Below are positions 24,091 through 25,690 of a stretch of DNA of 64,000 nucleotides, in pieces. Origin of the DNA: Ignisphaera sp. (lineage in GTDB: Archaea; Thermoproteota; Thermoprotei_A; Sulfolobales; Ignisphaeraceae); NCBI GenBank assembly GCA_025058535.1, contig JANXEL010000033.1, positions 1 through 64,000 on the forward strand. Direction: 5' to 3'. Within the stretch, counting starts at the first letter, position 1; each line of letters begins with the position of its first letter. Both the position numbers and the translations under genes were made by a program. Under the pieces are notes generated by a model. It saw nothing but the letters and a program-made list of their open reading frames with translations, was not told the origin of the DNA and made no database searches.

Positions 24091-24633
24091 ATGCTAATAC
24101 AGCTCTTTAGGACAAGGAACGTTGATGAAAGAATACTAGAGGATGTAGCACTCAGCTTACACAGCATCTTTATGGCTGAAGTCGAGATCCAAAATTACTA
24201 TATAGAACTTCCTGACAATATATTTGACAGCGAGAGAATGCAGTACCTAGCAGATGCTGTGATCTACCATGTATACAAATACAAAAGCCTTGCAGCAGTA
24301 GCAATAGTACTGGTGGGGTTTGATGCATATATAAAGGGGCTAAACTTTGTCTTTGGACTTGCAATACCCCATTTGAAAACAGCGGCAGTGTTTCTGCCTA
24401 GGCTAGCAGCAGTCACCCAAGCTGCACTTTTCCCAGAGAGGATTAGAAAGGAGGTTGTGCATGAGTTAGGCCATATACTAGGATTGAAGCATTGTTCAAG
24501 AATTAACTGTGTTATGAGTTTTAGCAATAGCGTCACTGATATTGATCGAAAGACTGTAAAGTTCTGCCACAAGTGTGGAAAGATCTTGGAGAGCAAGGGC
24601 TACAGAATTAGCAGAGAATTCCTCCTCCTGTAA
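24091..24633 (+). CDS. amzA: Archaemetzincin zinc protease
   Basis: Small metalloprotease of the archaemetzincin family. The extended zinc motif HELGHILGLKHC near residue 125 is followed by the Met-turn CVMSFSNS near 144 and a CHKCGK pair near 163 that with nearby Cys residues forms the family's second structural zinc site. 180 residues, complete. No signal peptide, so it is likely cytoplasmic. Physiological substrates of this family are not known. ATG 24091 after a weak ribosome binding site. Confidence 0.92.
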   Translation: MLIQLFRTRNVDERILEDVALSLHSIFMAEVEIQNYYIELPDNIFDSERMQYLADAVIYHVYKYKSLAAVAIVLVGFDAYIKGLNFVFGLAIPHLKTAAVFLPRLAAVTQAALFPERIRKEVVHELGHILGLKHCSRINCVMSFSNSVTDIDRKTVKFCHKCGKILESKGYRISREFLLL

Positions 24634-24648
24634 CGATGTGAACTAGAA

Positions 24649-24801
24649 GGGTTTAGCCCCACAGGATGTATACAGGATAAGTCGGTGACTGGTAAGCCTA
24701 GGGAATATCGGCCTAAGGGCTTTATCACCCTTAGGTTCTATATCCCCCGGCCTACCAGGGTTCTCCGACTTATTCTGCATACATCCTGTGAGTTTGGCCC
24801 C
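24649..24801 (-). ncRNA. Rod-like 153-nt hairpin, candidate structured RNA
   Basis: A long interrupted inverted repeat fills this stretch. CACAGGATGTAT at 24660 pairs with ATACATCCTGTG ending at 24790, and the helix runs on through GGATAAGTCGG to make about 26 pairs with one mismatch. Inside are CTGGTAAGCC/GGCCTACCAG (one mismatch) and CCTAAGGG/CCCTTAGG around an apical loop ctttatca. It is more GC-rich than its flanks. A TATA element (ctatatatag, 24806-24815) would start minus-strand transcription almost exactly at the helix foot. I see no SRP, RNase P, tRNA or 5S signatures. A mobile miniature element is the main alternative. Confidence 0.5.
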
Positions 24802-24805
24802 CAGC

Positions 24806-24815
24806 TCTATATATA
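24806..24815 (-). promoter_or_regulatory. TATA box next to the 24.7-kb hairpin
   Basis: The symmetric element ctatatatag predicts a minus-strand start near 24785-24790, the outer end of the hairpin. Being palindromic it could also fire rightward. Confidence 0.4.
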
Positions 24816-25023
24816 GCGTAGGCAGAGCCTTAATTATAGTGAGATACATAGTTTTCTTTTCTATCAATATAGATATTTTGATGTGCTATGTTCATTTATT
24901 TTATGATGGTATTACCAGCTGTATGTTTTTAAATATATTTATTAATCATTTAATTGGTTTAAGTATTATCTAACTATGTGTATTATATTCTCCCAGTCCC
25001 TTTTAATGAGATTAAGGTGTTGA
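24816..25023. other. AT-rich intergenic stretch
   Basis: Between the hairpin element and the nuclease-like gene I see AT-rich sequence with no supported gene. Confidence 0.5.
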
Positions 25024-25437
25024 ATGCTGTGTAGTGAAACTCTAATCGTTGAGAAGCTTGCTAAGAAGCTTCTCGTTCTAGGATACGATGTATATAGCAA
25101 TTTTAGATTCATGGGATTAGAGTTTGATGTTATGGCAGTAGAGCTTTCTAAAGAATTTTGGCGACCACTTGTACACATATTTGAGGTTAAGGTGAGGGCT
25201 AAACCTAAAATAGTTGATCAAATTGAGAAGAGATTAGGAATGGCTGATTATTTATACATAGTTGTTCCATACGGGCTCTATCCATGGATTTTAAGAAAGA
25301 TTAATAATTTAACTGGGGTTATAATATATAAGGATGACGATCTGTATGTGTTTAAGACTCCTGTCTTTATAGGTAATGGTTATAGAATTCTGATGCGGAT
25401 GCGCTACTTTAAGGAGCAGACCCGGTATACGGATTAG
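25024..25437 (+). CDS. PD-(D/E)XK nuclease-like small protein
   Basis: A 137-residue protein with the pattern of a stripped-down restriction-endonuclease fold: helix VEKLAKKLLVLGYDVYS, strand with Asp (GLEFDVMAVE), then IFEVKVRAK, giving D...E-x-K, and a later strand YIVVPYG. Resembles archaeal Holliday-resolvase-like or MmcB-like repair nucleases in arrangement only. No recognisable partner gene. ATG 25024 preceded by AAGGTG. Confidence is good that it is a gene and moderate for the fold. Confidence 0.65.
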   Translation: MLCSETLIVEKLAKKLLVLGYDVYSNFRFMGLEFDVMAVELSKEFWRPLVHIFEVKVRAKPKIVDQIEKRLGMADYLYIVVPYGLYPWILRKINNLTGVIIYKDDDLYVFKTPVFIGNGYRILMRMRYFKEQTRYTD

Positions 25438-25457: not shown

Positions 25458-25478
25458 CCTTGCGAGATATTCTGTATT

Positions 25479-25542
25479 GCGATGATGAGTGACTCCAATG
25501 CATGATTGTGCAGAGATGATATGCTCCAACCCATGCTGACTC
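25479..25542 (+). ncRNA. C/D box sRNA 1
   Basis: Archaeal 2'-O-methylation guide candidate. Box C ATGATGA at 25482-25488 and box D CTGA at 25536-25539 bound a 58-nt core. The internal C' is probably GATGATA near 25514, and D' is weak (CAGA or absent). The guide before D is ctccaacccatg. A TATA element is correctly placed. It lies downstream of the nuclease-like gene on the same strand. The weak D' lowers confidence. Confidence 0.6.
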
Positions 25543-25593: not shown

Positions 25594-25613
25594 TGCAGAG
25601 GAAAAGTTCTAAA

Positions 25614-25690
25614 TAGCCCGGTTGCCCGTGCAAATAAACCCCGTCGTCTCGGGGCTGCATGTACACGGGGCGGGTCACCCCCGGATCACC
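25614..25690 (+). ncRNA. GC-rich hairpin, candidate ncRNA
   Basis: This stretch is far richer in G+C than its surroundings, as structured RNAs are in AT-rich thermophiles. CCCG at 25617 pairs with CGGG at 25671, GCCCGTG-type stem 25625-25630 pairs with 25664-25669, and the apical stem CCCCG/CGGGG (25639-25643 with 25650-25654) closes a six-base loop. The bases between the stems (8 and 9 unpaired) resemble an H/ACA pseudouridylation pocket, but I see no ACA box at the expected spot. It lies between two convergent genes and its end overlaps the stop of the minus-strand gene. A dual terminator is an alternative. Confidence 0.45.

Follow-up and report, generated by a model that had tools for sequence, protein, structure and literature searches.

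A rod-shaped RNA gene with a canonical BHB foot, linked to a small PD-(D/E)XK nuclease-like gene in Ignisphaera and a second archaeal family

What kind of element is the long hairpin at positions 24649-24801 of the window (the whole stretch of 64,000 nucleotides of Ignisphaera DNA analysed here), and does it work alone or with a neighbouring gene? The first-pass annotation described a 153-nt rod-like hairpin of raised GC in a gene-free stretch, and proposed for it either a new structured RNA or a miniature mobile element. Folding located the hairpin where it had been placed and far beyond chance: the minus strand of 24649-24801 reaches -96.2 kcal/mol versus -46.6 ± 4.1 for its shuffles (z -12.2, 0 of 200 equalling it), and the plus strand -86.9 kcal/mol (z -9.8 relative to shuffles). 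Its GC content is indeed higher, 0.51 compared with 0.27-0.47 in the surrounding DNA measured in 150-base steps, and it is flanked by an archaemetzincin gene (24091-24633, plus strand, Pfam M54) and an open reading frame of 137 amino acids (25024-25437, plus strand). With its foot included, the element spans 24649-24802 and comprises, on the minus strand, an outer helix, a bulge-helix-bulge (BHB) foot and a rod of ~50 bp. As had been supposed from the lack of familiar RNA features, no Rfam family matches the rod at gathering or permissive thresholds. SRP RNA was rejected as its identity, there being no Rfam match at the rod and a normal SRP RNA gene elsewhere in the genome, separate also in the genomes tested; a tRNA intron was rejected as well, no tRNA gene being found in the window. 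Searches of the open-licence literature found no account of this RNA.

Rods homologous to that of the window were found in 20 genomes belonging to two archaeal families, 19 of them additional to the Ignisphaera genome studied here. A DNA similarity search recovered a single relative, 73% identical, in genome G008; folding revealed equally strong hairpins with little DNA similarity at the matching place near the archaemetzincin gene in G003 and G004, two other genomes of the genus, and a pattern search with the apical hairpin added the rods of G009 and G001, two other matches to the apical-loop pattern (L018 and L023) being rejected as not rods. This apical hairpin, AAGGGUGAUAAAGCCCUU at 24715-24732 on the minus strand, is conserved as GGGUNNUAAAGCCC in six Ignisphaera rods and in variant forms elsewhere. 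Since the rods of these five genomes all adjoin a homologue of the reading frame at 25024-25437, the encoded protein was taken as the search anchor.

The arms of the rods have diverged almost completely in sequence, and their pairing is retained through massive covariation. The alignment of the window with G008 keeps 56 of 56 pairs, eight of them through double changes, the structure itself having been derived from these two members. A covariance model built on this pair finds the rods of other genomes with E values of 2e-21 to 0.04 when searched within the loci. Because MAFFT misaligns the arms when applied to full rods, feet were aligned separately and arms through a covariance model. In the model-based alignment 95.3% of the cells are paired (versus 54% for shuffles and no more than 48% when partners are slid) and double-sided changes occur at 55 of the 56 pairs; the pair counts of model R2 lean, since four of its 15 rows are reverse strands of members and its alignment was fitted to the structure.

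The foot of the rod, which the first-pass annotation overlooked together with the probable circularisation and the nuclease partner, reads on the minus strand GGG-GGCC-AAA-rod-GGCU-AAA-CCC, with the 4-nt blocks pairing, a 3-nt bulge following each of them and the flanks pairing outside. Its 5' half (24793-24802) is formed by the outer GGG at 24802-24800, the central helix strand GGCC at 24799-24796 and the bulge AAA at 24795-24793; its 3' half (24649-24658) by GGCU at 24658-24655, the bulge AAA at 24654-24652 and the outer CCC at 24651-24649. Two 3-nt bulges with a 4-nt helix between them are the canonical BHB (PMC6379350). In the aligned feet of the 20 members every cell of the central helix is paired (100%), with five pair types at its outermost position (C-G, G-U, U-A, A-U and G-C). 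A canonical BHB with at least one outer pair is present in 19 of the 20 versus 0.36% of flank shuffles, the exception being G013 with a 4-nt bulge; the register of the feet had been set manually ahead of the count, a step that biases toward this outcome, and the alignment is gapless. The central helix always forms between cognate feet, compared with 155 of 380 combinations when feet are swapped between genomes, and slid controls for the foot alignment fall to 36-63% paired. Small irregularities are also seen, namely an unpaired U in the inner helix beside the bulge of the window rod, and an outer helix of only 1-3 bp in several species.

A gene for the splicing endonuclease EndA is present in the same genome (PF01974, E 1.2e-28). 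With a canonical BHB, the substrate of this enzyme, at its foot, the rod is very probably cut by EndA. EndA cuts after the second base of the bulge. Cutting at both bulges would release a predicted RNA of 141 nt (24653-24793, minus strand; 97-160 nt in the other species) with the junction ...GGGGCUAA^ACUCACAGG... upon closure. In archaea, BHB cutting followed by ligation yields circles (PMC7714728; PMC12558985), and closure of the excised rod into a circle is likewise probable. If so, the exact predicted circle junctions could be searched for in existing hot-spring RNA data.

Transcription of the rod from the minus strand, claimed in the first-pass annotation, is supported, and the TATA box that it saw as exactly placed for a start at the helix foot gives way to another. 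The TATA-like stretch nearest the foot, at 24808-24817 on the minus strand, is too close to serve as the box for a start at the foot. Across the 20 genomes an A+T peak is found ~28-33 nt ahead of the foot; transcription would accordingly begin near the foot, and thus the rod gene would comprise little beyond the rod and the signal for its excision. The better candidate, and a probable TATA box, is TATAATTA at 24838-24831 on the minus strand, which coincides with the A+T peak and aligns with CATATTTAAGG of G008, the nearest relative.

The neighbouring 137-aa protein (25024-25437, plus strand) is a predicted nuclease. Residues E5, E33, D35, E54-x-K56, R58, Q66, R70 and D75 are invariant across 18 homologues and form, as judged from sequence, a complete PD-(D/E)XK active site; the protein shows the catalytic D ... 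E-x-K and the conserved fold by which this superfamily is recognised. Its AlphaFold2 model (pLDDT 92) is a single bare nuclease domain of restriction-enzyme-like fold, best matched by 3dnx (a protein of unknown function), SfsA and restriction enzymes of the PaqCI and MspJI types, and most PDB structures of related fold are DNA enzymes. Pfam gave no match over the curated cut-off for the window protein, and its homologues show weak similarity to UPF0102 in most cases and to NERD or Hjc in a few. In fold and active-site residues it resembles these PD-(D/E)XK proteins, but differs from them as a separate family tied to the rod, with all matches under the curated cut-offs. The closest homologue (76% identical) lies on a named contig from an uncultured Ignisphaera MAG.

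Of the order's 214 genomes, 27 are matched by a profile of this reading frame, and for 21 of these, distributed over two families, the E value is near 1e-25 or better. Within ~0.5 kb of 20 of these 21 close homologues, a fold scan detects a rod with a folding energy of at most -86 kcal/mol per 160 nt; G011 (L042) is the sole one without a rod within 1.5 kb. The C-terminus of the G011 nuclease reads WFGRG in place of the usual (Y/F)(L/I/V)GNG. No comparable rod accompanies the weaker homologues of the profile search, and none with a BHB foot the more distant relatives in the phylum. Conversely, 13 of the 14 genomes matched by the RNA model alone also carry the nuclease, and the model search of the 214 genomes returned rods only at nuclease loci, plus one odd palindrome (G080); absences in these comparisons are soft because many of the assemblies are incomplete.

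The arrangement of both genes varies. They are divergent in the Ignisphaera family (L024-L034), and in the second family convergent in six genomes, with slight overlap in places; three genomes have them codirectional. Neighbouring genes are common within genera and not between them, so that, together with the variable orientation, the linkage is seen to hold when site and orientation change. Between the divergent genes of the window, at 24908-24916, stands a palindrome, GGTATTACC; most genomes have it ahead of the nuclease gene, and most rods are preceded by a copy that is exact or has one mismatch. Exact GGTATTAC sites number 15 in 3.0 kb before nuclease genes compared with 10 over 64 kb of these loci, for a motif picked after looking at the sequences. 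As the palindrome is genome-wide no commoner than its reversed control, co-regulation of rod and nuclease through it is offered only as a suggestion.

That 20 genomes carry the rod next to one and the same small nuclease gene indicates a new RNA-protein system, and a functional partnership of rod and nuclease is highly likely, even though genomic linkage alone is no proof that their products touch. The best explanation, which we consider likely, is that the EndA-excised rod RNA works together with the nuclease. A small RNA gene at 24649-24802 (minus strand) would yield a rod precursor, host EndA would cut both of its bulges, and the cell's RNA ligase would probably close the released rod of ~141 nt into a circle; this circle would be the RNA half of a two-gene module, and the adjacent 137-aa PD-(D/E)XK nuclease the other half. 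In such a module the rod would most likely bind the nuclease and control it, either as RNA inhibitor or as scaffold of a self-harm or defence nuclease. That the rod specifically inhibits or scaffolds the nuclease is put forward tentatively, because this step draws on a parallel with other systems in which an RNA is paired with a nuclease, type III toxin-antitoxin among them, and the features that define the latter are not found here. A new two-component archaeal system, in which a covalently circular, EndA-excised, double-stranded rod RNA would be the cognate regulator, scaffold or sensor of the nuclease in an RNA-controlled toxin or defence module, is a serious possibility, somewhat short of a probable one. 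Excision and linkage are well supported by the sequence comparisons; circularity and control of the nuclease by the RNA we infer.

The main competing explanations are a processing role for the nuclease and a selfish module. According to the former, the rod would have its own role, such as binding a protein or serving as a decoy, and the nuclease would merely mature, trim or turn it over. A dedicated processing enzyme would suit the constant linkage equally well, and a protein consisting of one bare nuclease domain would fit the task; nonetheless, the BHB and the EndA encoded in the genome already provide a complete processing route, and the prevalence of DNA enzymes among the related folds points elsewhere, so that this explanation is unlikely, albeit the best placed of those considered against a partnership.

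The selfish module is suggested by the distribution of the pair. In G002 and G001 the same syntenic block of a structured element, a C/D sRNA and the archaemetzincin gene is present without rod and nuclease, only about 90-160 nt separating the C/D sRNA from the archaemetzincin gene, and in G001 the pair occurs at a different site; on this pattern rod and nuclease are gained and lost together as a unit, which speaks for their partnership too. Presence and absence at one site, and sites that differ between genera, would be expected if DNA cutting by the nuclease served to propagate the pair, with the BHB allowing the rod to be spliced out of transcripts in the style of a homing intron, and archaeal BHB introns with homing nucleases are known. 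Yet the rod is intergenic rather than inserted within a gene, the nuclease lies outside the excised part, each genome holds one copy, selection acts on one RNA strand (see below), and neither phages, plasmids nor close searches of viral contigs gave a match to the nuclease. Such a module is thus improbable, and the partnership of excised rod and nuclease remains the preferred reading.

It might also be asked whether the hairpin sequence matters as a DNA palindrome, as a cruciform or replication-related site cut by a resolvase-like nuclease, given that a long near-perfect inverted repeat stands next to a nuclease weakly similar to UPF0102, NERD and Hjc. At imperfect positions of the arms on the predicted RNA (minus) strand, G.U outnumbers A.C by 138 to 39 (p = 3.6e-14, a nominal value since the genomes are related, and for most members the strand was initially chosen by folding energy and only later defined by the BHB). 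If arm-to-arm copying maintained a perfect DNA palindrome, no such bias would be seen, which argues for selection on the RNA of one strand. In all 20 genomes, moreover, the predicted RNA strand outscores its complement with the two-member covariance model. This bias, the covarying BHB, the conserved apical loop and the position of the promoter make a DNA site very improbable. A miniature mobile element, for which long terminal inverted repeats are a hallmark, is practically dismissed by the single rod locus of the genome (1.72 Mb in 103 contigs; DNA and covariance-model searches), where dispersed copies had been proposed as its mark, by a position conserved among several species of the genus, by covariation and strand selection at the RNA level, and by the tie of the homologues to one nuclease gene. 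On the sequence evidence the rod is an RNA gene and not a mobile repeat, and of the two identities first offered for it, the new structured RNA is the one borne out by the covariation, the G.U bias, the recovery of other rods by the two-member model and the absence of an Rfam match.

With regard to known systems, PADLOC yielded no system match apart from weak, sporadic hits in 1-2 of the 18 members, and rod and nuclease are best read as an undescribed two-gene system, no Rfam, Pfam or PADLOC family covering the pair. Archaeal BHB-excised circles (tRNA introns, pre-rRNA circles and the 5'-UTR intron of HVO_1309) share the canonical cut motif, and their route of EndA followed by ligase (PMC7714728) is the one expected for the rod; they are, however, introns or intermediates of another RNA, whereas the rod is itself the conserved product, with almost nothing outside it. 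The circularised SRP RNA of Thermoproteus is a stand-alone archaeal RNA made through BHB and ligation (PMC4731332), as predicted for the rod, which is not an SRP RNA. BHB-excised introns, rRNA circles and this SRP RNA are mechanistic relatives, but none of them comes from an independent rod gene accompanied by a nuclease.

Type III toxin-antitoxin systems (ToxIN, CptIN) also combine a structured RNA gene with a small nuclease gene, but in these systems tandem RNA repeats immediately precede the toxin within a single operon, while here a single rod is divergent, convergent or codirectional, with no tandem pseudoknot repeats, no ToxN-type protein and a host BHB signal for processing. Circular isoforms also exist in archaea for the IS200/IS605 omega RNAs (PMC12558985), likewise non-coding RNAs beside a nuclease gene; in the present pair the partner is a bare PD-(D/E)XK protein instead of TnpB, there is no transposase and the RNA is a simple rod. 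Viroids and Obelisks are rod-shaped as the probably circular rod RNA is, but the latter is encoded by a single-copy chromosomal DNA gene, is much shorter and bears no sign of RNA replication. The BHB-derived circular RNAs known from archaea are mostly by-products or intermediates that arise as tRNA and rRNA mature. In the present case an entire gene is apparently built to make the rod, its structure is strongly selected in two families and one nuclease travels with it. If this is true, a tractable, dedicated circular-RNA gene with a protein partner would be at hand.

Some further structured elements were observed. The odd palindrome of G080 (L111, 720-990), very long and perfect (-205 kcal/mol), lies downstream of a uS8 gene; its apical loop resembles that of the rods of the second family, it has no recognisable BHB foot and no nuclease nearby, and it may be a rod variant or an assembly artefact. 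In the distant genome G299 (L074, 1061-1220), a hairpin of -110 kcal/mol with ends GTCCCACAGCCC and no BHB is found near an unrelated gene with a PD-(D/E)XK domain. In the window, a C/D-box sRNA resembling sR46 (25478-25539, plus strand; 31.3 bits, below the gathering score, E 4e-5) is conserved in six Ignisphaera genomes, with the rod-nuclease pair on one side of it and the SAM hydroxide adenosyltransferase gene on the other. A GC-rich structured element (CCGGGGGTGACCCGCCC...GGGCAACCGGGC; 25612-25690, minus strand) at the 3' end of the latter gene is conserved at the same place in six Ignisphaera genomes and may be another small RNA.
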